From the NCBI GenBank assembly GCA_003833135.1, contig QZLH01000017.1, positions 171,960-235,959 on the forward strand: 64,000 bases of DNA, given 5' to 3'. Origin of the DNA: Oehlia diaphana (taxonomy: Eukaryota > Glomeromycota > Glomeromycetes > Glomerales > Glomeraceae). The number at the start of each line of letters is the position of its first letter. Positions within the stretch are counted from its first letter, which is position 1. Both the position numbers and the translations under genes were made by a program. Positions 6,486 through 59,235 of the stretch are shown here, one piece after another. The notes beneath the pieces are model-generated. The model was not told the origin of the DNA. It searched no databases and saw only the letters and a program-made list of their open reading frames with translations.

Positions 6486-8530
6486 TTAAATAGGAAAATA
6501 TTTATGAACAATAAAGAAAAGAATAATAATAATTACATAATAGAAAAAAAGAAATTTATAATTATTCAATCGTTTAAAGCTTTCAAGTTTACTATAGAAT
6601 TATTTAAAGGTTTTATTATATAAGAAAGATTATTATTATTTCGTATAAAAAAAAATAAAAGATTACTTACATTATAGAATAAATTCTTTCTTTTTGAAAC
6701 AATATTTTTTGAAGGGTGAATTTTTTCCTATAAAAATGATTAAGAAAAATTTACTATTGTTTAATTAACATACGTGATTGAATAAATTCTTTTTTCTTGA
6801 AATACAATAACTAATAAATATTCTTTGTACATCCTTGAAGGATAAAATTACTATAAAACGTTTTTATTATTTTACTTATAAATAAAAGTGAATTTTTGAT
6901 TACTTACGTGAATGAATAAAATTTATCAATTCTGTATTTTCGAAATATAGAAAAATCAAATAAATGTTATTTTATATTAAGTTATTTTATATTAATAAAA
7001 TTATTACTTACATAATTGACTCAATTTTGCTTTTTACGATTTTTTCACGATTTACTGATTTGCTATGTAACAAAGTGAATGGAAATTTAAATTAGTTATT
7101 ACATTATCATAATTTATTATTTCCTGTAATCACTTACTTAAGTTTTGTAATTTTAAAAACTTCATAATCTTCCATCAAATCAACATTTATAAAAGATTCT
7201 ATTCCAGGATCCTTGATGGTCAAATTAAATAAGTTAATAAAGCCAGGATCATCAGTAATAATAGAGTCGTAATCACTTCTTGCAATTATAGGTGAACTAA
7301 GATCATCTTGATTTTTAAAAGAAAATATAAAGCTATCGCCTAACATTGCGCAATTTTTTATATTATATCCTCCAATTAACCTTCCAGTATCTTTAGTTTT
7401 AGCAACAATGAGTGTTGGTCCTTTATCATCGCATAATTCATGGAATTTTGTTGTGTCAAATCCATCTCTAGTTGCGCTATAAAGTAGTTCAAGAGAATAA
7501 GGAACATTCTTAATATTGTAATATTCTTTTTCTTTATCTATCCAACTAGTAATTATAGCAAAATGTTTTTTATTTATAATTTTAAAGGACGGATTTCTTG
7601 GTTGTGATATGAATAAAGATTTTGGTGGGGAATCAGGATCTAAATAATATCCAATTATATCATCATAAATATTTTCCGAAAAAATCCTTTTAAACGGGCT
7701 TATTTTTTGATGAAATAATTTTGGAGGGATTTGGACCCATCTAATAAGTAGAATAAAATCATAAAGAATTTCTCCAAGTTCAACGAAATCTTCTTCAGTC
7801 CAATTGGAATGTACATTAATATTAATACATTTTGACATTTGTGCTATTCCCCATTCTAATATATATTCCCAAATATTATATTCATTCATGTATAAATCAT
7901 CTCTTTTAACAATAGAGATTAAAATAGGCTTATCTATTGTTAAAAACGTGGAAGATTCAAATAATACTTCAGGGTTATCACAGATTAACTGTAAATAAAA
8001 ATTTTTTATAGAAGTTAAAGATTCATAGTGAAATATCGTTTGAAGAACTTCAGTTGGATCTTCGTTTAAAAATTTCGCTTGTTTCTCAATTATGTAACTT
8101 TCTATATAATTGTGTAAATTTCCGAAACATATTTCGTCTGATGCTACAAGATATTTTAATATATCTATTCCTTTCTGTTTATCTAATTCAATGGTTCCAG
8201 TATAAATATACCTTTTAAACGAACATATATAAAATTATTATAAGTTCATTAAAATTTATATATAAGATGAAATATTTTAACTTACTTCAATATTAATTCC
8301 ATAATTTTTGGATTAATATTTGGTTTATTAAAAACGACAATTCCATATTTTTTACGAGCCCAATTCTTTGATAATGCAGCTTTAAAATAAGTTGACCTTG
8401 AACTTAATATTAAAGAGTGAGTATAAAAACTTCTAATATTTTCATTTTTTCCAGCTTTAATAATTACATCATAATTATTTCCGCTAGAAAGTAATTTTTC
8501 AAAATCATTTAATAATTCATCTGGAGTCAT
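6486..8530 (-). CDS. BTB-BACK-TLDc protein A with predicted C-terminal membrane anchor
   Basis: BTB domains form dimers and often bring targets to Cul3 ubiquitin ligases. TLDc domains occur in oxidation-resistance proteins and are common partners of BTB in these fungi. Proposed exons: 8286-8530 (BTB, NYDVIIKAGKN), 7138-8211 (end of BTB, BACK, TLDc with FHELCDDKGPTLI), 7012-7062, 6908-6931, an uncertain 6774-6850, 6671-6727, and 6486-6591. The last encodes a hydrophobic segment (FLFFYYVIIIILFFIVHKYF) and a TAA stop. The start at 8530 matches the start context of gene B; an upstream in-frame ATG at 8614 is less likely. Small exons 7012, 6908 and 6671 are multiples of three and in phase, giving about 518 residues. 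The 77-nt exon at 6774-6850 breaks the frame and has a TAG, so it must be skipped or the copy is damaged. The TLDc end is about 15 residues shorter than in gene B. Splicing downstream of 7138 is inferred. Confidence 0.75.
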
Positions 8531-11505
8531 GTTTTTTTTTCGTATGATGGAAGAAAGAGCGTTAAATGAATTGATCATTTTAGGTTGTCTCATTTGCCTG
8601 CATATTTTTAACATTGCAGATATGACGCCTTAAATAGAAACATTATAATAGACGTTAGTCATACAGTACAGTACATTCATTTTTCTATAAATAACATATT
8701 AATAAAGCGTACGACATACATTATGTATCTTGTTGCTCTCGATATCATTTTCCTTTCAATTGTTAGACACGACATATTCTTGAATGGGCCTAGTCGCAAA
8801 CATAACATTTTCCTGACATGACATTTTCCAAAGTTGATTTATTATTTTATCCTGACATTTTATAAATTGTAAATCTTATTTATTATTAATAATAATGATG
8901 TTTTGCAAATAAAATTTGATTTGATATTTACAACAAATAAGAGTGCGAAAAATAAAAGAAAATAATAAAGTCATTAATTTATTATATAATCATTTTTAAG
9001 AAAAATCTGCTCCATGAAAATGTAATATATTAATAGCAGAAAATTTCATATCTTAGTAAGTAGATTATATAAACATAAACAAATAAATTTTTTTCTGTGA
9101 TAAATTATTTTCGGTAAATCGGGTTTGAGAAATGTCATGTCAAAATATTATCTTTCAGAAATATTTGCCGGGAAAGCAAGTTATCCATAGTAAAATTAAA
9201 TTTTGGCTGATGATCTTTCTTGCGCTTTTACTTTGGGATCACGCTTAATATGAAAATCATGTGACGATCATGACATGTGATATTGTGCTTACAAGTTAAT
9301 ATTATGTATGGCCAATCAAATGTAATTTAGTCATGTGCATGTTACATTTTGATAAGTATATCAGATTCACATTGAAAAAAGAAGTCTGCAATTTATTGAC
9401 ACAGTGTGTTTGAATGTTAAATTAGTATCAATATGATATTGAATTTCCTCGAATCCTTTAATCTCTATCTTTGAATCAGAATATAAAAATCGATTTCTTG
9501 GAGAACACAATGCAAATTTGAGCATCATTCTATCTAATCAAACAAGTCTTTATCTTCGTATTCAAACTTGTAGCGCATCACTTCGTTACATATTGTGTAC
9601 TTGCCCGAACCTCAGTATAATATGCTATATAATATATATTATTAGGAATCAAACAATATTTGCTACGAATTAGCAACAGCAGGTAAACATAATATTGTAT
9701 TTTTTATAAAGTGATCAAAGGAAGAAAGATTAAAGCATGATTAGACTATACTGATCTGTTTGTTCAGCCTACTGATCTAACCATAGAGAGAGTTCATTTT
9801 CAATTACTGCGTATTACTAATCTTTACTATCTCTATCTTTCCGACATTAGGTACGTACGCCATATCGACACGTACAGTATATTCCGAAAGGCAATCCTCG
9901 ACAAGAAATCGATTTAACAAAAAGATTTAAGGGGCGAATCGCCATTCAACAGGGATAATTCGATTTACGCAAACTATCGCTAAAATCGGTTAATACCCTT
10001 AAATACCCCTTTTTTACTGGATAACCATCTCATCATGTGATATGATATCAAATTTTAAAGATAGTAATTAATAGTGTCAATCCTGGCTAAGCCACTTGCA
10101 GAGTTTGAAGTCCGCTAAAAGTTCCACGTCTCGTCTTCGACTTCACTATGGAGGAACGTAAAATTCCGATCATAAATTTCCAGCTAATTCAAATTTTAAA
10201 TGATTTATTTTTGAACCAATTTGACCGAAAATAAGTTAATTTTGGTTCTATTTAGTTTTTAAACCTTTATTTAGTTTTAGTTTAGCTTTTTTTTATTTTT
10301 TTTTATCTTTTATATTTGTATGGTTCCCACCGGTTTTATGAATATATCCCAAAGTGCGAGTTTTTAAAACAATTCCCCTAGCCAAAAGAGTTACTGCATA
10401 CTGTTTTTTTTTGTTCATTAAAAAGTTTGTATAATAAAGAACAAACAAAAAATTTTATTAACGAAGCCCGTAAAATTAATTATAGATTGCCGATCATTTT
10501 CTCCTATTGAGTGCCGAACTATCACTTAATTGATTAAACATGTAATTATTTATATACTATATTTAACTTTCATGGTGATGATTTTTCATATGATTAATAA
10601 ATAAGAATTCATCGCATTTTTTTTTTCTACAAAAAAAAAAAATTTACAATTTATAAAATCTTAAAAAACGGAAAAAAAAAATAATTTTTTTATTTGCTTA
10701 AATTAACGAAGTAACATTCTTGTAAATGTCGTTATCAGGCAAATCGTTTTGGGGAAAAAGGGTACGTTCGGGAAGGAAAATGAATGTCGGCAAATCATGG
10801 TGTAACATTATGTCAACGTACTAAGAATCCAAGATCGAACAATCAATTATTATAATAAGATATGTTAAAAATTTGAATTTCGATGACATAATTTTTTAAC
10901 TGATTTCCTATATGATTTTTGATAATCTTTTCAAGATCGTTATAATACACATATAGTTTTTTTATTACGTGGCAAAAAATCAAAGGCGTTCATTCATAAA
11001 AAAAAATAAATGTCATTCGATTCTTTATTTTGATTTCTCTAGGAAGGCTTACTTACATATTTCCATATTATCATTACTGTATATTCCATCGTTGAAGTAC
11101 CATCTCATATTCATTTAATAACCAAACATTTAATATAAATCAAAATTTCTTTAACGAGAATTTATTTCAGATTCCCCCGTCAAATCGATCAACTAATCAA
11201 GAATTAGTAAGCGGAACGTGATATTGTAACTATAGATGAGATATCTAATCCATTCAAAGTTCATTGATTCTAAACTTATAATGACTAATAATACGAAAAA
11301 AAATGGTTTCAAAAAAAATTGAAAAATTTTCAATTTTAACTAGATTCGGTCAAGAATATGCACTTACATAAAAATTATCAACTAAATTAGCGTGAGTAAT
11401 AATTGTTAAATGAGTACACTCTATTGATAGATCAAACCTTTTCACCTTTTCTCACTTATTTAAAAAATATCTAAAAATTTTTTTTTTTTTTATTAGAAAA
11501 ATACA
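8531..11505. other. Long intergenic region, no gene seen
   Basis: No supported coding region is present. A 13-bp motif TGACATGACATTT at 8814-8826 recurs inverted at 9130-9142, which could mark a small decayed element of about 330 bp. The rest is AT-rich with poly-T/A tracts near 10610-10640 and 10670-10690. Confidence 0.4.
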
Positions 11506-12397
11506 ATGTCCGAAACAAATATCACACTATTCTGTCTTGTTCTTGGAGAAAAACCCATTAATAGTTGCGTTTTCGAAGTTAATATCAATAAATACGATAG
11601 TATTTCACGCCTCAAAAACGTTATAAGGGATGAAAAAAAAAATGATTTTTTTAATATTGACGCTAACAAACTGAGATTATGGAAAGTTGATATACCTATT
11701 ATTGAAGAAGATAAGCTGAAAATACTTAATAAGCCTCATACAGAGATTAATATTGAACAAGAACTTGGAGGTGAAGAGCTTTCATCGGTTAAGAAAATTC
11801 ATCATTACTTCCACAAACCCAAAGATGAGCACATTCATATCATCATAAAATTGCCCACCAATAACATTGGTAAATGGTACGTCTTCTTTGAACCAGCGAA
11901 TCAACAAAAAATTGATGATTCTATGATCAAAAAAGAATACGAAAAGGTTGAAAAAATCGCAAAAGACATTGGTTTAGACGATTGGCTGTTGCTTATTATG
12001 TCAAACTGTTCAAATAATACATTTAAAACCAACTTACCATCAAAATGTACGATTAACGATGAAATTCAATTCTATGGTCCATCTCGGGACCAAATTGCTG
12101 ACTGTAAGCTATATATATCCTTAAAAAAATTTTCATTTCTTGTTATTCCAGTTTATTAATTGAATAATTTACTCCTTTGTAGCTCAAGAAAAGTCCTGCA
12201 TTAATTCCAGGGTTATTGATGACATTGAACAAGAAACTGTACCCGATACTATTGAATTTGATGAATATAATAAAAGAAAATTTGATGACGATGAGGATCT
12301 ATTAATACGCACAAAGTTTCCAAGGTTGTCCTTAGATTGTGCAGAGGAAGAACCCTTAAAACCCTTAAAACAAAGCGTAAAGATTTTAATGTATTAA
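11506..12397 (+). CDS. Short Crinkler-type (CRN header) protein
   Basis: The N-terminus (ITLFCLVLGEKPINSCVFEV, then residues resembling I-S-x-L-K-x-x-I with a later KLRLWKVDIP) matches the ubiquitin-like header of Crinkler proteins. These were first known from oomycetes and are present in Rhizophagus, where some are studied as host-directed effectors. Exon 1 is 11506-12103. A GTAAGC donor follows; exon 2 starts at 12183 after TTTGTAG and ends at TAA 12395-12397, giving about 270 residues. If the intron is retained, a stop comes at 12157-12159. The middle (residues about 110-160, containing KWYVFFEPANQQKI) and the acidic Lys-rich tail show no nuclease, kinase or other known CRN C-terminal domain. 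It may be a header-only or truncated member. No classical signal peptide is visible. It is convergent with BTB-TLDc gene B. Confidence 0.65.
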
Positions 12398-12876: not shown

Positions 12877-15800
12877 TTATAATTGGTAAATATAAATTAC
12901 AAGACCAAGAATAAATCTAAATTTAATTAAGTCTATTTTAAAGAAATTTTTTATAAATAACAAAAGAATGAACAAAAGAAAAAATACAACAAAAAATTTA
13001 ATTACATATTGGAAAGAAAGATTAATACTAGTTGAAGTACTAATAATAGTTGATGTACTTGTCAGTGAGACAATTGGGATACTTGCAATTTTACTATAAA
13101 ATAATTAAAGGAAATTAATACTATGTTTACTATTTTATATTATAACTTGTATTATATAATTAACGATAAATATACTTACACGATTGAATTAACTTTATCC
13201 CTTTGATATAAAATATTTACTATATTGGCACATCCTTGAAAGATTGCAATAGTTAACATCAATTTACTGTAAATTGATTAAAAGATCAATTAGTATTTTA
13301 AAATATAGAATAACGGACAATTTCATTCTGATATTAATTACTTACATAACTGAATAAAATTTTCCTTTTTGAAATATAGTATACAATATATCAATACATT
13401 TTCTAAAAGTAAATTTACTAGATTGAGATTAAAGCAAAGAACATAGTTAGCAAGGTAATTTCATAGGGATTAAAATTTAAGTTACTTACATAATTGAATA
13501 AGATTGAAATATAATAGTAATACATATTTGAAAAGTGAAGTTGCTATAAAAAAAAATTAGTATTAATTTAAAAATAATACGTTAATTATATAAAACATCC
13601 TTAAAACGGCATTGCAATTACTCACGTAATTAAATAGGTTGTAAATATAATATCAGCACATCTTTGAAAAATAAATTCTCTGTAAAATAATTAAGAAATT
13701 GAAAATTAGTTTGTTATTAACAATGCGCTAAATATAATATAAAAGGAAACCAGGATCAAATTTGAAATATAACATCAGCACATAAAGAATTAAAAGGAAA
13801 ATTAAGGTTGTTTTATATAAAGAAATATATGGGTGACTATACAGAATCGTGAATATTAAGAGTAATGCCCATAAAATCACCCAACAGTTTTAACAAATCA
13901 CTTACATAATTGAATAAATTTGAAAAACAACGTCGGTACATCTTTGAAAGATAATTTTACTATAAAATAATTAAAGTAAATTAGTACGAATTCATATAAA
14001 ATAATAGTAAAAAACGAATTACTTACATGGTATTAAATAATATTTTAGCACATTCTTGTAAGGTATTTTTTCTATAAGATGATTAAAGGGAAAGGTAGTA
14101 TTATTTCATAATAAAGAAATTTTCATTAGTGAGTATAAATCACTAGATAGTGATTGCGTATAGAAATCATCGCATATGTTTTAGCAATGTTTTGGATAAA
14201 GGTTAAATTACTTACATAATTGAATAAACTTGAAATATAAAATAAGCACAACTTCGAACGCTAAATTTCCTATTATAGAGTAATTTAAAGAAATTAGTGT
14301 TATTTTATTAAAGAGAATATAGGATTCAAAAAGTAACTACTCACATAATTGAACAAATTTGAAATACAATATCAGAGCATCTTTGAAAGATAAATTTCCT
14401 ATAAAAATAATAAAATAAAATTATTATTATTTCATATAAAATAATGAAAAAACGAATTACTTACATAGTATCAAATAATATTTCAGCACATTTTCGTAAA
14501 GTATATTTGCTATAAGAAGATTAAGGAAATTAGTATATTTCAAAATACGTATATGTATTAAAACACGAGCTAATGATTACATATAGAGCCTGTAAAAAAC
14601 TCTCATAAGTATTAGCGGTGCTTTAAATAAAAAGACAAACGTTAATCACTTACATAATTGAGTAAACTTGGAGTATAAAATTAGCACATATTTGAACGCT
14701 AAATTTCCTATTATAAAGTAATTAAAGTAAGTTAGCGTTATTCTTTTAAAGAGGAATGCGGGATTAATTCACAAAGACCTGTCTATGATTAGGATTAAGT
14801 GATTACATATAAAATACGTAAAATAACCCCACTAGTTTTAGCAATTTTCCAAGTAACCCAATTCAATTACTCACATGATGGAATTAATTCTGCCAAAAGT
14901 ATTAACTAATATTTTAGCGCATTCTTGGAGGGTAAATTTACTACAAGACAATGAAAAAAAAGTAAATAACGTCTCATGATATAAACAAAATATATTATAC
15001 TATAATCACTTACACGAACGAAGAAATCTTATCGATTTTGTGTTTCGCGATGATAAATTCACTACAAAGATGATTAAAAGAAAAGTTAGAATCATTACGT
15101 ACGTAAATTATCAACTTCAAAATATTTGATAATTTGATAACTTTACGTCGTTAAATTAAATTGGCTTTTCGTAATTTTTTCATTTTTTATTAATTTGCTA
15201 TGAGAAATAAATTAACTTTAATTAATTTTAACATTATCGTAAAATATTAATTTAGTTAGTACTTACCTCAGTTTTGTTACTTTAAAAACTTCATAATCTT
15301 CCATCAAAAACTTTTGACCAACATTTATAAAAAATTTTGTTCCAGGAAATGAACATGTAGAATTACATTCAAGTGTATTATCTTTGATGATCAGATCGAA
15401 TAAATTAATGAAATCAGGATCATGAATAGAGCTAGAGCTGTTTAAATTAACCGCTCTTGTAATAATTGGTGATCTAACATTATTTTCATTTTTAAAAGAA
15501 AATAAAAAATGGTTATCTGATATTGTATTAAATTTCCAACTTCCTGGATTATACCCTCCAATTAACTTTCCGGTATCCTTAATTTTAGCGATAATTAATG
15601 TCGGTCCTTTATCATCACATAATTCATGAAACCTTGTTGAATCAAATCCATCTTTAGTTGCGCTATATAATAATTCGAAAGAATAAGGTACATTCTTTAT
15701 TTCATAATATTTATTTTCTTTATCTATCCAACTAGAAATTATGGCAAAATGTTTTTTATTAATAATTTCTGAACTAAAAGATGGTTTTCTTGGTTGTAAC

Positions 15801-16759
15801 AAGATTATCGATTTTGGTAATGAATCAGGATCTATGTAATATCCGACTATATCATCAAAAATATTTTCCGGAAAAAGTCTTTTAAATGGAAAAATTTTTT
15901 GATAAAATAATTTTGGAGAGATTTGAACCCATCTAATAAGTGGAATAAAATCCGAGATAATTTTTCCAAGTTCAATGAAATTTTCCTCAGTCCAATTAAT
16001 AAGATTATCAATATCAAGAGAGACTGGCATTTGCGCTATTCCCCATTCTAACACATATTCCCAAATATTATATTCTTCCACATGTAAATCGCCTCTTTGA
16101 ATAAGTAAAATTAATATAGATCTATCTATTGCTAAATTTTTTGTTGAAAATAATATTTCGGGATGATCACAAATTAATTTTAGAAAAAAATCCCTTAACA
16201 CAGTTAAAGGTTCATGCTGAAATAAAATTTGAAGAACTTCAACAGGACTTTCTTGTAAAAAATCTGCTTGACCTTTAATTATATAGCTTTGAATATAATC
16301 GTTTAATCTCCGGAAGTACAGTTCATCTGATGCCACAAAAAGTTTCAATATTTCGGATCCTTTTTGCTTATTCAAATCGATCGTTCCGGCATAAACGTAC
16401 CTTTCCATCATCAAAAAAAAAAGCGAAAGATTTAAATGAGATTTCTAAAATTTTATTACTAATATATCATATTCATAATCTTTTTTAAGATAAAATTTTA
16501 CTTACTTTAATAATAATTCCATAATTTTAGGATCAAATTTTGGTTCTTTAAGAAGAATCATCCCATCTTCTTTGTGGATCCAATTATTTGATAATGCAGC
16601 TTTAAAATAAGTCGACCTTAAACTTAATATTAATGAATGCGCGTAAAATCTTTTAATATTTCCATTAACTCCAACTTCAATAATTACATCATAATTATTT
16701 CCGTTGATAAGTAAATTTTCAAAATCACATAATAATTCTTCCAAAAAATTTTCTGTCAT
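12877..16759 (-). CDS. BTB-BACK-TLDc protein B with mini-exon array and membrane anchor
   Basis: Sixteen proposed exons give 780 residues. Exon 1 (16506-16759) carries most of BTB (NYDVIIEVGVN). Exon 2 (15267-16400) carries the end of BTB, BACK (residues about 115-215, NIWEYVLEWGIAQM) and TLDc (about 285-460, FHELCDDKGPTLI, GGYNPGSW). Exon 3 (15147-15197) is a basic linker. Then come twelve mini-exons between 15061 and 13180 (residues about 481-708), and a last exon (12877-13093) with a Ser/Thr-rich linker and a transmembrane helix YVIKFFVVFFLLFILLLFI at about 738-756, followed by a second hydrophobic patch and TAA. Every junction keeps the same phase. Without further splicing the TLDc exon would stop at 15263, but that TAA overlaps a consensus GTAAGT donor. 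BTB and TLDc are likely cytosolic and tethered to a membrane by the tail. Domains are seen directly; the tail splicing is inferred from signals and open frame. Confidence 0.8.
13180..15061 (-). repeat. Tandem array of 12 phase-matched mini-exons
   Basis: In transcript order the exons are 15014-15061 (48 nt), 14875-14940 (66), 14654-14707 (54), 14465-14509 (45), 14345-14398 (54), 14216-14269 (54), 14027-14071 (45), 13906-13959 (54), 13626-13679 (54), 13490-13543 (54), 13346-13417 (72) and 13180-13266 (87). Nine donors are GTAAGT and three GTGAGT, and all acceptors end in AG. All are open in the shared phase and encode variants of KFIFQRCSDIVFQICSI, with a central Cys in eleven of twelve. The intervening introns are also repetitive. 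A remnant of another unit without a donor lies near 13755-13795. Confidence 0.8.
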
Positions 16760-17510: not shown

Positions 17511-18705
17511 CACAGTGAAATTCGATATACCGGAACCTTAATATAACGGAACATAAGTAAAGTCTTGATATATCGGAATTGGGGTCTGGAACGGATTATC
17601 ATAATCTATAAGTATTACTTATCTCCTGGCTAATTAGGAATAAGTAAAATTTTACTAGGATTGGATAAATGATCGGCCGAAGGCTGATCATGTTCCGATT
17701 CTAAGTAAAATTTTACTATTCCAATTAGCCAGGGGATAATTGATTTATCCCTGCCATTTACACAATAGTAAGTGTTTTATAGTATATCGTGAGTATAATA
17801 TAGTATATTTTATTGTTGAATCTTATTTTTCATTCGCNNNNNNNNNNNNNNNNNNNNNNNNNNNNNNNNNNNNNNNNNNNNNNNNNNNNNNNNNNNNNNN
17901 NNNNNNNNNNNNNNNNNNNNNNNNNNNNNNNNNNNNNNNNNNNNNNNNNNNNNNNNNNNNNNNNNNNNNNNNNNNNNNNNNNNNNNNNNNNNNNNNNNNN
18001 NNNNNNNNNNNNNNNNNNNNNNNNNNNNNNNNNNNNNNNNNNNNNNNNNNNNNNNNNNNNNNNNNNNNNNNNNNNNNNNNNNNNNNNNNNNNNNNNNNNN
18101 NNNNNNNNNNNNNNNNNNNNNNNNNNNNNNNNNNNNNNNNNNNNNNNNNNNNNNNNNNNNNNNNNNNNNNNNNNNNNNNNNNNNNNNNNNNNNNNNNNNN
18201 NNNNNNNNNNNNNNNNNNNNNNNNNNNNNNNNNNNNNNNNNNNNNNNNNNNNNNNNNNNNNNNNNNNNNNNNNNNNNNNNNNNNNNNNNNNNNNNNNNNN
18301 NNNNNNNNNNNNNNNNNNNNNNNNNNNNNNNNNNNNNNNNNNNNNNNNNNNNNNNNNNNNNNNNNNNNNNNNNNNNNNNNNNNNNNNNNNNNNNNNNNNN
18401 NNNNNNNNNNNNNNNNNNNNNNNNNNNNNNNNNNNNNNNNNNNNNNNNNNNNNNNNNNNNNNNNNNNNNNNNNNNNNNNNNNNNATTAGTTAATATTTAC
18501 CGCAAAATTTCCTAGAAACGGATAAATAAATACATATAAAATTTGCTACCTAGTAGGTATAACTACATTTGCATAATCGTGTAAATGGTGCCGATCAGGG
18601 GATAATTAATATAATTTACCCTCGATATAACGATATAACGATATAACGGATTTGACAAATTTTACTAATGGAACGGATGGTTCCATTATATCGAATTTCA
18701 CTGTG
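17511..18705. mobile_element. TA-flanked terminal-inverted-repeat element (Tc1/mariner or pogo-like), interrupted by gap
   Basis: The left end CACAGTGAAATTCGATATA (17511-17529) and right end, read inverted from 18705, share the first 19 bases, followed by a less exact GGAACC. TA dinucleotides flank both sides (17509-17510 and 18706-18707), as expected for the Tc1/mariner/pogo group. Inside the left part, arms near 17620-17642 (CTGGCTAATTAGGAATA) and 17712-17738 (TATTCCAATTAGCCAG) form a second inverted pair. Near the right end CGATATAACG is repeated three times (18624-18650). An N gap (17838-18484) hides the middle, so I cannot tell whether a transposase is present. Confidence 0.65.
17838..18484. 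other. Assembly gap (647 N)
   Basis: Unknown bases. The gap lies inside the inverted-repeat element, which suggests that a repeated copy could not be resolved. Any reading frame reported across it is meaningless. Confidence 1.
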
Positions 18706-20029: not shown

Positions 20030-21618
20030 TTAATCATGTCTCTTACCGCTACTTATTGTAGAAGATTCGTAAAAAAAATCATCATCGTCAAAGTTATCGG
20101 CATTCCTTGGTTGAAAATTTATATAGCCAGTTGAATAAAACGCTCGTGGATTAGAATTAATATAAATTTTTACAGTTGATGTAGGAGATAAATTTTTATT
20201 ATAATCTTCTGCCTCTTTAATTTGTAAATTGATTTCCGTATCCTCTTTATTTTGAATTTCCGTACACCATTTGCTAAAGATTTCCTCTAATTCAGTAATT
20301 ACAGGTCTTTCCAAATAGTTTGCATTTAAACATTGTTTAATCATATTTATAAGTAATTGTGGTACTTTAATATTGAATTTAGGTCTAAGACCTTCACATA
20401 TTCTTAAAGCAAGTAAAGAATCACATGAGTAAGGAGCTCGTTCAGAAATAATTTCAAACATTATTATACCCAATGCGTAGATATCAGACGCAGTAGTATA
20501 ACGAGGACTACCACGTAAATGTTCTGGTGCCAAATATGGTGTAACACCGTATACACCATCCTTTTTAGGTTTAATGTAAGCGGGTTGACATAATCCTAGG
20601 TCAGTTATCATAAATTTATTCGCTTTCTTTAAAATATTTCCTGGATGTAAATCTTTGTGAATTAATTCTTTTTGATGAATTTCATAAATACCTTTTATAA
20701 TTTGATAAATTATTTGAAATTTTTTTCTAAAATCTATTGATTTACAATTTTTTAAATAATCATGAAGATTTCCACTTTGTGCGTAATCCATGACCAACAT
20801 ATAATTCTTAGTATCAGGATCTTGAGTTATACCGTAACATCGAATAATAAATGTATCATCAGATAACATAATATGAGCTTTAATTTCATTTAAAAAATCT
20901 TTTGTTATATTTTTAGAATTATGTAAACTTTTTAATACCACTTGTTTGTTGACACAACTATGGAAAAATGAATTGTTATGACTTTTTTTTGTATTATTGA
21001 AAAATTCGTTGATCCAAGTCGCACGATAAACCTTAGAAAATCCACCTTCCGCTAAATATTTTATATTCTTAAATTTATCAAAATCGATCCATTCGATCAC
21101 TCCTGATATTGAGATTGCTTTTAATCGAACATCATTAATAAATTTATCAATAATTTCATTTCCACTAGTACAATCTTTTGAATTTTTCTTTAACCTTCTG
21201 ACTGAAAATTTACCAAAATCTAATGTATCTTTAAGTCTTTGAAATTCTTGATCATTTAAAGTTTCATAATACTTTGGTTCTATACGGTTTACATATTGTT
21301 TAATTAATTCCACCAAACTTTTACGATCATACTTTAGATAATTAAAATTACGATACTTTGAAGTGTGAATTTCCATTAAATGTAAAACTTTTGATAAAGA
21401 TTTTAATCTCTTTAATAATCTTTCATAAGGTTCCACTCTTAATTTCTGAAATTTTGTTACGCATTCTTCCATTTCTTTCTTATCATATTCCGCTTCTAAA
21501 AAAAAAGAATTCATTTAAATTTTTAATTATTTTTATATTAATTTTATTCATTAACTGATAATATAGATAATTTACCTCTTATAACTTTATTCCAAAGAAT
21601 TTTTTCAATAACTTTCAT
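20030..21618 (-). CDS. TKL-type protein kinase, catalytic motifs intact
   Basis: A Ser/Thr or dual-specificity kinase of the expanded TKL group. Exon 1 is 21576-21618 (starting MKVIEKILWNKVI) and exon 2 is 20030-21495, giving 502 residues. I prefer this start because the ATG at 21514 lies inside a TTCTTTTTTTTTAG acceptor tract; the spliced form keeps the frame. The N-terminal half (to about 150) is helical and charged, with a CTSGNEIIDKF motif shared with the kinase at 48.7 kb. Kinase motifs: glycine loop AEGGFSKVYRATW, catalytic Lys in QVVLKSL, HKDLHPGNIL for the HRD loop (Arg to Lys), DLG for DFG, YLAPEHL for APE, and ASDIYALGIIMFEI. The tail after about 430 is polar with an Asp run. The substrate is unknown. 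Confidence 0.9.
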
Positions 21619-28932: not shown

Positions 28933-29987
28933 TTATAAAAAAAACAAATCTTCTTTTAAATCCAATGGAATATCATATCTAACTCTATTCTTATTTCTAT
29001 TCCTTTGTTTATATTTTGTAAATTTTGGTATATACCCTTTAATAACATGATATTGAAAGATATCATTATTAAGTTCTTCAGGTAAGATTTTTTCATAAGG
29101 TGATATTTTAACAAAATAATCTTTTGAAAAAATATCATAATAACGAATTAAAGGGATTAATCTTTTCAAACTTTTCTGTAAAATGATGAAATCATCCTCC
29201 CTCCATTTAGCAATTTCTTTATCAGCAAGTGAAGGATTCCTCGCAATACCCCATTCTATCATTTTATCCCAAATAATAATTTCTTCGATATTTAAATTCT
29301 CTTGATCGAGGATCGTACAAATCATTTCTTCTTCCAATAATATAAACTTTTCAGAAGAAAAGATATATTTAGCCCTATCACAAATAAAGTTTAAATAATG
29401 ATCCTTCAATTTATAAAATAAATGATCATATTTTAAAATGGTGCGTAAAATTTCGAGAGGGTCCGATGAAAAAAATTCCATTATATGTTTAATCAAAAGT
29501 TCTTGAACGTATTCAATAAATGACATATCAAGATTAAGTTCATCTGCTGCAATCAAATAATCCAAAGCTAATGTTCCATCATTAGGATTTATATCAATTT
29601 CTCCACAATATAAATATCTACAAAAAAAGAAAAAAAAAAAAATTTTTCAGCATATATATATACATACTGTATATATAAAATAATTATATATCTATCTATA
29701 TAAATTTAATAAAAAAAAAATACTTGCAATAAAATTTTTTGCAAGACTAATTTAGAAATATTTGGTTTTTTAAATATAAACTTTCCGTCTTTCATTTCAG
29801 CCCAAGTTGGGGAAAGTGCAGAATCAAAATATGATGATCGCATCCTCAAAATAAAAGAGTGAGCGTAAACAACTTCAACGTTTGGTTCTTCTCCAACATA
29901 AATTATAACATCACAGTTCTTTTTTTGAAGAAAACTTGTTTTCAAATCTTCAAGAACCTGAGGACCAAAAGCAGACTTTATTATCAT
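28933..29987 (-). CDS. BTB-BACK protein without TLDc
   Basis: Exon 1 (29728-29987) carries the BTB start (NCDVIIYVGEEPNVEVVYAH). Exon 2 (28933-29617) carries the BTB end (YLYCGEIDI), then BACK (IIWDKMIEWGIARNPSL, FIILQKSLKRLIPLIRYYDI). The protein is 314 residues. The intron must use a GC donor (GCAAGT at 29727) to keep the BTB frame; a GT at 29723 would break it. The chain ends after a short basic linker with DLKEDLFFL, where genes A and B continue into TLDc. It may act as a BTB adaptor or dimer partner without a TLDc output. The region 29643-29747, spanning the intron and exon 1 end, is repeated exactly next to the gap at 56596. Confidence 0.85.
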
Positions 29988-56595: not shown

Positions 56596-56997
56596 NNNNN
56601 NNNNNNNNNNNNNNNNNNNNNNNNNNNNNNNNNNNNNNNNNNNNNNNNNNNNNNNNNNNNNNNNNNNNNNNNNNNNNNNNNNNNNNNNNNNNNNNNNNNN
56701 NNNNNNNNNNNNNNNNNNNNNNNNNNNNNNNNNNNNNNNNNNNNNNNNNNNNNNNNNNNNNNNNNNNNNNNNNNNNNNNNNNNNNNNNNNNNNNNNNNNN
56801 NNNNNNNNNNNNNNNNNNNNNNNNNNNNNNNNNNNNNNNNNNNNNNNNNNNNNNNNNNNNNNNNNNNNNNNNNNNNNNNNNNNNNNNNNNNNNNNNNNNN
56901 NNNNNNNNNNNNNNNNNNNNNNNNNNNNNNNNNNNNNNNNNNNNNNNNNNNNNNNNNNNNNNNNNNNNNNNNNNNNNNNNNNNNNNNNNNNNNNNNN
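56596..56997. other. Assembly gap (402 N)
   Basis: Unknown bases. Sequence before it (ATTTAAGGGTTCTGAAAATG at 56390) and after it (ATTTAAGGGTTTTGAAAAAG at 56998) is nearly the same, and both run into CCATCGTCCC and a T/A homopolymer. This suggests an unresolved or duplicated join. Confidence 1.
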
Positions 56998-57098
56998 ATT
57001 TAAGGGTTTTGAAAAAGTAAAATAAAAAAAACCATCGTCCCTTTTTTTTTTTAAAAAAAAAAAAAAAAATAAAAAATAACTAAATTATCATAACAAAC

Positions 57099-59235
57099 TT
57101 GAAATTCACTATGAAAAAACTCATTTTCAGAAATAAAATTGCCGTAACTATACAAAAATGTGAACCAGATAAAAGGGCAATGGTTCGCCTAAACCCCATG
57201 GAAAAATTATCAAATATTCGAGCGAAACTTAAAAAACGTAGTATCGTCATGATGGATATCACTTACTCTTTTGCTCGGAAAACACCCGAAATTAATAATA
57301 ATAGTGCTAACAATGAGATTAGCTATTGGTTCGCCGAAATAGCACGAGAAGATGAAGAAGAACTTACTTTAAGAGAGATCTTAGAAAAAATTAATGATGA
57401 TAATATTTTATACTTGGTGAAAAATTCAAGCCCCGATTGGAAATTTTTGAATAAACGTCGTAAACTAAGTTATGGATGTAAAATGACTTTTGACGGTATT
57501 AAGAAAGCAAATAAAAGAGCTTTTAAAATGAAATGTTGTGATTTGACTGTAATCGGCGCTGAAGGATTTAAAAAGGGGGTTATTAAATTTAAGTCGGACG
57601 AAGATTGGATGATGAAAAAGAATTTATTTTTTAGTGCTGATGTTAACGTACAAAATTTTATAAAATTAGGAGTTTCATCCGAAAGCCTTAGACGAAGTTT
57701 TATTAATAATGAAACCAATCTATCTTATCGTTATATGGAATATGGTAAAATATCTTTAAATTTTGGTAAATATTTAAAACCATCTTCAGAATTTAATAAA
57801 GCAGTGGAAGAAGCCATAGAATCCCAAGACCCTAAAAAATTTAAGATCATCATTGAAGAATTTGGTCAATTCGTTCCAACTGAGGTAATTTTGGGTGGAA
57901 GAATGTATTTTGAAAGTGTGGACCTATCAACAGAACAAACACAAATAAATTCTAAGGATAATACTATAAAAGTAGGCGCTGGAAGTTTTATGAACACCAA
58001 ATTTGGACGAAATTTCAATCACAAAAAAGGAAATTCAAGTTATTGTAATTTTAGTTTTGTAAGCTTAATTGGAGGAGAGCAACCTGACGGTTCCGAAGAT
58101 TTTGATAAAGCTTGGGTTCAATCTTTAAAAGATTATAGAAATTGGGATTGTATAGAATATCGAAATCCCGTTAGTATTTTCAGTTTATTGTCTGAAACTT
58201 TACGTAAAAGAATCTTAACATCTATTGGAAAAAGAGTTCTTTATTCACACTTTGAGGATCGTAATTATCGGTTGATAGAACGTGGAGGAAGAGTTTTTGA
58301 ATTAAATATACCTTCAAATATAATGAATATTATTCATAATAAGGATTCTGATTGTAACTTTTTTGCAACGGTTGTCGACCAAGAAAATACAAATGATCTG
58401 TTTAATTGTCAGATACTTTGTCCATCAAATGGAAAACCAAGCGTTATAGTTCATTGTATTCAAAAAGAGTTTAAAAGATGTAAATGTCGTTTGAAAATCG
58501 GTCTGATGGTTATCGGTTATGATACGAATTTTAATTTTATGATTTCGGATAATGATTCTAACGTTCAAATCGATGTTCTAAAAAAGAACTTTGATGCTTC
58601 TTCATCATTGCAAACTATGTTCAATGGAGATTCATTAGAAAATAATATTCCTTGCTTAGGAATTCCCGTATTAGATAAATTAGATTCTTCAAATAATTCG
58701 CTCATTATTGGACATTATTTTTTTGGCGATGCTCAAGCAGCAAATGTAACTGGATATTGCACGTTCTCTTATTGTTTAAGAAAAGAACGCTATGTAAATT
58801 TGCCGAATTTTAATTTTTATACTCTTACTACCTCGAAAACTTTATATTCCGATGCTTTTGGAAAAACACTTATAGATCGACGACCATTTGCTAATGATTC
58901 GTTGAAGTTTATTAGTCTGAATTTGTATTCTGCTAAAACATTTTGGAAACTCGGTAAAAGTAATAATGTTTTTTTTTTAAAACAGGACCAAAAGCAAATT
59001 ACAATTTCTAATATTGAATGTAAGTGTAGGAAAACTTTAAATAGAACTTGTGATATCTGTAGAATAATCTCTAATTTTCAAAGAAATGTTAAAAGTATTG
59101 AATGTGCATTCTTCGATTCAGAAGTAAGTATATCTAATTATTTGCTATTATCAAGATTGTTAAAATTACTAACTAAAACCTTCTACATTTAAGGTACTTG
59201 AGAATTATAAAAAGAAAATTGAATCGTTCGTATGA
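57099..59235 (+). CDS. MACPF-like family protein of the Rhizophagus type
   Basis: Exon 1 is 57099-59123; after a GTAAGT donor, exon 2 is 59194-59235 (VLENYKKKIESFV, stop TGA), giving 688 residues. If the intron is retained the frame ends at 59192. The centre holds EEFGQFVPTEVILGGRMYF (about 258-276), then KVGAGSFMNTKFGRNF, WVQSLKDYRNWDCIEY, NPVSIFSLL and DCNFFATVVD. I associate this order with a large Rhizophagus family related to MACPF-like proteins, but the family link is from memory and pore formation is not shown. Near the end CKCRKTLNRTCDICRII could bind zinc, and the tail is coiled-coil-like. There is no signal peptide. It is divergent from the arrestin/Hsp70 fusion, which carries the same central motif, so the two may share a promoter region. 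A second in-frame Met at residue 5 is possible as start. Confidence 0.75.

Follow-up and report, generated by a model that had tools for sequence, protein, structure and literature searches.

The DNA analyzed here, referred to as the window, is a 64,000-nucleotide stretch from Oehlia diaphana, a root-symbiotic fungus with a genome close to that of Rhizophagus irregularis. It lies on contig QZLH01000017.1, called C17 below, where three neighbouring BTB-TLDc genes carry short exons downstream of the TLDc domain: one mini-exon of 48 nt in gene A (whose last exon was judged by eye), four in gene B and 13 in gene C. In gene C, the focal gene, a BTB exon and a TLDc exon are followed by the 13 mini-exons (45-87 nt) and by an end exon with a transmembrane stretch, and every intron, the first included, is in phase 2. 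The tandem mini-exon array exists as a row of symmetric exons. The features are as follows, with P numbers denoting relatives described below:

16506..16759, minus strand: exon 1, which carries the start codon and the BTB domain (Pfam BTB PF00651, 1.5e-9), ending in phase 2 at GTAAGT
15267..16400, minus strand: exon 2, linker and TLDc domain (Pfam TLD PF07534, 2.2e-13)
15147..15197, minus strand: mini-exon M0, 51 nt, weak donor GTAAAG; peptide present in P0001, P0002 and P0070, absent from P0004
15014..15061, minus strand: mini-exon M1, 48 nt
14875..14940, minus strand: mini-exon M2, 66 nt
14654..14707, minus strand: mini-exon M3, 54 nt, opening the duplicated block M3-M5
14465..14509, minus strand: mini-exon M4, 45 nt, missing in the R. 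clarus model
14345..14398, minus strand: mini-exon M5, 54 nt
14216..14269, minus strand: mini-exon M6, 54 nt; R. irregularis P0070 stops one codon beyond its donor
14027..14071, minus strand: mini-exon M7, 45 nt
13906..13959, minus strand: mini-exon M8, 54 nt
13754..13783, minus strand: decayed exon relic in a 226-nt intron, matching the mini-exon core (repeat family D5), with no intact splice sites seen
13626..13679, minus strand: mini-exon M9, 54 nt, missing in the R. clarus model
13490..13543, minus strand: mini-exon M10, 54 nt
13346..13417, minus strand: mini-exon M11, 72 nt
13180..13266, minus strand: mini-exon M12, 87 nt
12877..13093, minus strand: terminal exon, transmembrane stretch (by hydropathy) and stop
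12932..13057, minus strand: candidate optional intron covering the transmembrane stretch, suggested by how P0001 and P0002 would be spliced; the window contains its sites
6486..8530, minus strand: paralogue B, built like gene C, with exons 8530-8286 and 8211-7138 and a transmembrane end exon 6591-6486
7062-7012, minus strand: paralogue B mini-exon, 51 nt
6931-6908, minus strand: paralogue B mini-exon, 24 nt
6850-6774, minus strand: paralogue B mini-exon, 77 nt, frame broken with an in-frame stop, the rest of the plan being intact
6727-6671, minus strand: paralogue B mini-exon, 57 nt

An earlier sequence-only reading had listed 12 mini-exons at 13180..15061, each sitting after an AG and before GTAAGT or GTGAGT, and M1 to M12 above agree with it in place, length and splice borders; all 12 are in phase 2. 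Their 687 nt, or 229 codons, are open in the single frame that joins the TLDc exon (ending at 15267) to the transmembrane exon (13093-12877), as it had said. All 12 are present, yet the array size of 12 has to be corrected, as a thirteenth exon, M0 (15197-15147), had been missed; its peptide occurs in R. irregularis and R. clarus gene models. The idea that M0 had decayed and lost its donor was rejected because the relatives show it intact, with GTAAAG as the donor. The gene model with the 12 listed mini-exons gives an open frame of 763 residues, and adding M0 extends it to 780. At the other end, the N-terminus of the protein runs directly into the BTB domain, and Pfam reports no BACK domain between BTB and TLDc for the window exon; one is given for the relatives P0003 and P0005. 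Elsewhere in the window, a weak BACK match (2e-4) at 28933-29646 on the minus strand probably marks another BTB family gene.

From the sequence we show that the exons, their common frame and their splice signals are well beyond what chance provides. The tail frame has no stop in 246 codons, where the density of stops in the introns of the array would predict 20.4; read in the remaining two forward frames, these exons contain 24 and 9. When each exon was shuffled, a mean of 2.7 of 12 stayed open, with a maximum of 9. Scanning for chains of symmetric open mini-exons found 12 in a row here, in phase 2, and at most two elsewhere in the window, at most one in 500 shuffles of the region and at most two in 50 other loci (420,488 strand-bases), while paralogue B has three. 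In the same scan a chain of 6 of the 12 listed exons was open in phase 1 too, so the openness of a single exon is not exclusive to phase 2, and it is the row as a whole that carries the frame argument. Nor does the openness amount to 12 independent events, because the exons are copies of one another. Among the 14 tail donors, 13 are GTAAGT or GTGAGT, the exception being that of M0. The tail introns are short (66-226 nt), and nine of the 15 introns have a CTRAY branch-point-like motif 17-33 nt upstream of the acceptor, a count reached in none of 2000 shuffles (mean 2.2).

These exons could in principle form a decaying, non-functional 3′ extension, being open merely as recent copies in a gene that normally ends at its TLDc exon. 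Consistent with this, the exon copies are related to one another, all 49 other TLDc ends that were read in the genome stop there, and there is a decayed relic inside the array and a broken exon in paralogue B. The internal duplication of the array argues the other way. M3-M5 and M6-M8 are copies of one three-exon block, about 438 bases apart, in which the exons have changed less than the introns (129 of 153 positions identical, or 84%, versus 202 of 299, or 68%; p = 0.0001), a contrast that does not depend on the kinship of the exon copies. The changes in its exons are mostly silent, with Ka 0.126, Ks 0.392 and Ka/Ks about 0.32 (p 0.02-0.03 using rounded counts), on a total of 22 changes. Comparing the 54-nt exons with one another gives 15 pairs, with Ks above Ka in 11 of them but not in the other four. 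At the level of sequence, then, the signal of protein-level selection is clear for the M3-M5/M6-M8 block and mixed for the older exon pairs. As splice and branch signals are also retained, and the tail is conserved between species nearly as well as the TLDc domain, we regard a decaying extension as highly improbable.

That conservation is seen in the gene models of relatives. A protein search returned 69 relatives, and all of those with an organism label belong to Glomeromycotina (P0009 has no label). The R. clarus protein P0001 matches over its full length, with 153 of 204 tail residues identical and 129 of 161 in the TLDc part, and the R. irregularis protein P0002 is identical at 236 of 247 tail residues and 105 of 109 in TLDc, showing that the tail is conserved in Rhizophagus. 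Exon borders in R. irregularis, R. clarus and Glomus cerebriforme were placed from the peptides. P0002 contains all 13 exon peptides in genomic order, P0004 (R. irregularis) contains 12 in order, and P0070 (R. irregularis) the first seven in order, while P0001 has 11 exon-sized blocks in order. The gaps in the R. clarus model are the whole exons M4 and M9 (M9 plus three residues of M10), and the lesser differences involve whole codons. In Glomus cerebriforme P0003 the tail is shorter, with three blocks resembling the repeats and 27 of 70 residues identical. The R. irregularis models are faulty in other places: both P0002 and P0070 begin inside the gene and omit the BTB exon, and P0002 also lacks about 53 TLDc residues. 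Annotation of the R. clarus genome drew on RNA-seq (PMC6007072), and that of the near-complete R. irregularis genome on Illumina and Nanopore RNA (Nanopore data PRJNA885267; PMC10234402); we infer that the tag OCT59 belongs to this near-complete assembly. P0004, also faulty, runs together with the kinase gene next door, and the window's copy of this protein kinase gene (20030-21514, minus strand), whose first residues are those fused to the array tail, is identical at 55 of 59 positions, which suggests that the order of array and kinase is conserved.

Since all introns are in phase 2, any subset of exons keeps the frame, and the exon symmetry permits free choice as the sequence-only reading had claimed. 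Its further proposal, that mini-exons are freely included or skipped to give many tail variants from one locus, would draw on this symmetry in 13 of 13 mini-exons, on the weak donor of M0 and on the whole-exon differences among models, with M0 in or out in R. irregularis and M4 and M9 gone in R. clarus. These two R. clarus gaps could equally reflect exons gained and lost during evolution or exons skipped. All four Rhizophagus models hold the exon order and P0002 joins 13 of 13, 13 of the 14 tail donors are strong, and the short introns favour intron definition. In Dscam-type arrays exactly one cluster exon enters each transcript; mutually exclusive use of this kind is ruled out here by the gene models P0001, P0002, P0004 and P0070, which join many array exons. 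Exon skipping is moreover described as comparatively low in fungi (PMC6142364). Taken together, the evidence did not bear out a combinatorial working of the array, which on sequence considerations appears improbable. Clustering of the protein database at 90% identity may hide isoforms, which makes their absence from it weak evidence.

Splicing could instead act on where the protein ends. Every phase-2 GTRAGT donor, if left unspliced, reads NNG TRA and thus carries an in-frame TAA or TGA, which would make intron retention or an optional transmembrane intron a likelier switch than exon shuffling. The ending of P0070 is exactly the window sequence read one codon past the unspliced M6 donor, and P0003 and P0005 end likewise, as an unspliced donor would stop them, although for these two the comparison is with peptides only. 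Three models extend as far as the transmembrane stretch, but two of them, P0001 and P0002, lack it, and both imply its removal through one acceptor. The corresponding sites exist in the window: a donor GTACAT at 13057 would give an intron of 126 nt and a second donor, GTAATT at 13004, one of 73 nt, with a common acceptor ending at 12933 or 12932. A switch of this kind, in which stop-bearing retained introns or the optional intron select soluble or anchored forms of different lengths, is weakened by the possibility that the truncated ends are artefacts, as model ends at donors may be a mere habit of gene finders, and by nonsense-mediated decay, which would clear many such transcripts; as the main role of the array we judge it to be a rather small possibility. 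A wider version, a membrane tether programmed by splicing, would have the choice of exons act together with the stop-bearing donors to set tail length and anchoring; it is unlikely but somewhat more plausible. If true, one fungal locus would yield a regulated series of tail forms after a TLDc stop had turned into a splice donor.

The peptides encoded by mini-exons M2-M11 share a rough motif, K-F-x-[FLV]-[QR]-x-C, whose cysteine, at position 7, is present in all 10 of them and is lost in several R. clarus blocks. Summed over exons, the helical moment at 100 degrees is 4.08, compared with 2.90 ± 0.40 in shuffles (p = 0.003), and at a beta-type angle the same exons give p = 0.69. Individually, four of 13 exons (M2, M5, M7 and M8) have a helical moment with p of about 0.05 or less, and in the per-exon test M0, M1 and M9-M12 have none of their own. 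In the AlphaFold model of R. clarus P0001 (pTM 0.47), which does not include the transmembrane stretch, the tail consists entirely of helices that span exon borders, at a low pLDDT of 40-62, while the part from BTB to TLDc is mostly at 80-95. Searching Pfam with the tail gave just a sub-threshold XPA_N match (0.25), and a PDB sequence search with P0001 matched the BTB part and produced one match at E = 0.17 (residues 186-291), with none in the tail. We also considered whether each exon spans a whole number of helical turns: lengths of 15, 18, 22 and 29 residues come near to this and 16, 17 and 24 do not. Because of these misfits, and because the 54-nt exons are mutual copies, the idea was given no weight. 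The Kyte-Doolittle maximum of 2.98 falls at residues 721-739 of the 763-residue model, predicting a single transmembrane segment near the C-terminus, as in tail-anchored proteins. Immediately downstream, on the opposite strand from the array, lies a gene with a Crinkler N-terminal domain (11497-12397, plus strand; Pfam 3.2e-21).

The sequence-only reading had also proposed looking for the same motif at other BTB-TLDc loci, and this survey places the design in a single three-gene cluster. The TLDc exon has at least 106 matches in the genome (105 of 920 candidates were scored), four of which are the three C17 genes. Among the 102 others, 49 TLDc ends were read, and in none of them does a GTRAGT donor lie between that end and the stop; the donor GTAAGT of exon 2 stands where other family members have their stop. 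A pattern describing a TLDc end with a donor directly behind it, which requires GAAGT and would miss other spellings, occurs at four places in the whole genome: 161242, 179091 and 187220 on C17, all on the minus strand, and one on contig C1163 that does not resemble a TLDc end. The reversed control pattern gave three matches. Both a DNA search for the array and a search with the tail protein match only C17 in this genome, at a sensitivity limited by the short exons, and the latter failed to recover even paralogue B. Among database proteins, the tail alone retrieved just P0002, P0004 and P0070, with a length window that left out the R. clarus protein. Within the reach of these searches, we show that the array is restricted to the cluster. 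The unspliced end of gene A is the exact family stop (ACA AAG TAA GT), and 3 of 40 other TLDc ends have the NNG TRA stop context, one step from a donor.

In view of these results, we consider that gene C probably encodes a BTB-TLDc protein with a helical tail built as one repeat per exon, grown by exon duplication, with mostly constitutive exons and a transmembrane end. Each of its 13 head-to-tail mini-exons would supply a single amphipathic helical repeat, 15-29 residues long. The tail may have started when the codon that stops translation behind TLDc (NNG TAA) turned into a phase-2 donor (NN|GTAAGT); with such an origin all later copied exons would have inherited phase 2, and an unspliced donor would end the protein at once. 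Growth would have proceeded by duplicating one to three exons together with their introns, and whole exons could drop out without cost to the frame. The mostly constitutive repeats might serve as a helical stalk or as a spacer lying on the membrane, with the BTB and TLDc domains held on the cytosolic side if the topology is tail-anchored, as we infer. Under this proposal a retained intron would end the protein cleanly at an exon border, with no anchor. Retention of the first tail intron would give the end KVTKLR, like the ordinary C-terminus of the family, and a soluble form could result from splicing out the optional intron that covers the transmembrane stretch. The locus shows how an exon array can begin (perhaps by a stop becoming a donor), expand through duplication and persist under selection; stages with 1, 4 and 13 mini-exons stand side by side in one cluster. 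It also offers a testable case of whether an array whose frame permits shuffling actually shuffles in a fungus.

Fibrillar collagens are one-repeat-per-exon genes with 54-bp exons. Collagen-type genes share with the array symmetric exons that each hold one structural repeat, and 54 nt is the commonest length here. A collagen-like repeat was ruled out, as the exon peptides have no Gly-X-Y; they form helical repeats with cysteine and are unrelated in sequence. The closest proteins are the BTB-BACK-TLDc and Kelch-like proteins of arbuscular mycorrhizal fungi, which have BTB and TLDc in the same order at 35-67% identity; the others that were read stop at the TLDc end, whereas gene C and its two neighbours go on into mini-exons. 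Schistosoma MEG genes also have a run of many short exons, of 3-81 bp (PMC10526429), compared with 13 of 45-87 nt here. Their proteins are secreted and their introns reach 5 kb (PMC10526429), in contrast to the BTB-TLDc core, short introns and transmembrane end of gene C, which was read from DNA and gene models. Trichoderma virens Xlr2 has a functional short exon in a filamentous fungus, though it is a single regulated microexon and not a tandem array (PMC11121469). In the SP7-like effectors of Rhizophagus, repeat number likewise varies within a Glomeromycotina family, but they are secreted, their repeats are hydrophilic, and one conserved intron precedes the repeats in place of an exon per repeat (PMC11333574). 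Our searches of the open-licence literature found no description of a mini-exon array in BTB-TLDc genes, in line with the earlier statement that none was known, and nothing on TLDc with BTB in Rhizophagus. Queries on tandem exon duplication, R. irregularis skipping and mini-exon repeats likewise returned no fungal gene with symmetric exons in a tandem array. Within the scope of this literature search the array is newly described, and its plan is that of one-repeat-per-exon genes.

Further along the window, N stretches occupy 17838-18484 and 56596-56997, and a 702-residue frame at 57084-59192 on the plus strand combines MACPF (7.4e-8) with DUF7431 (1.2e-83).
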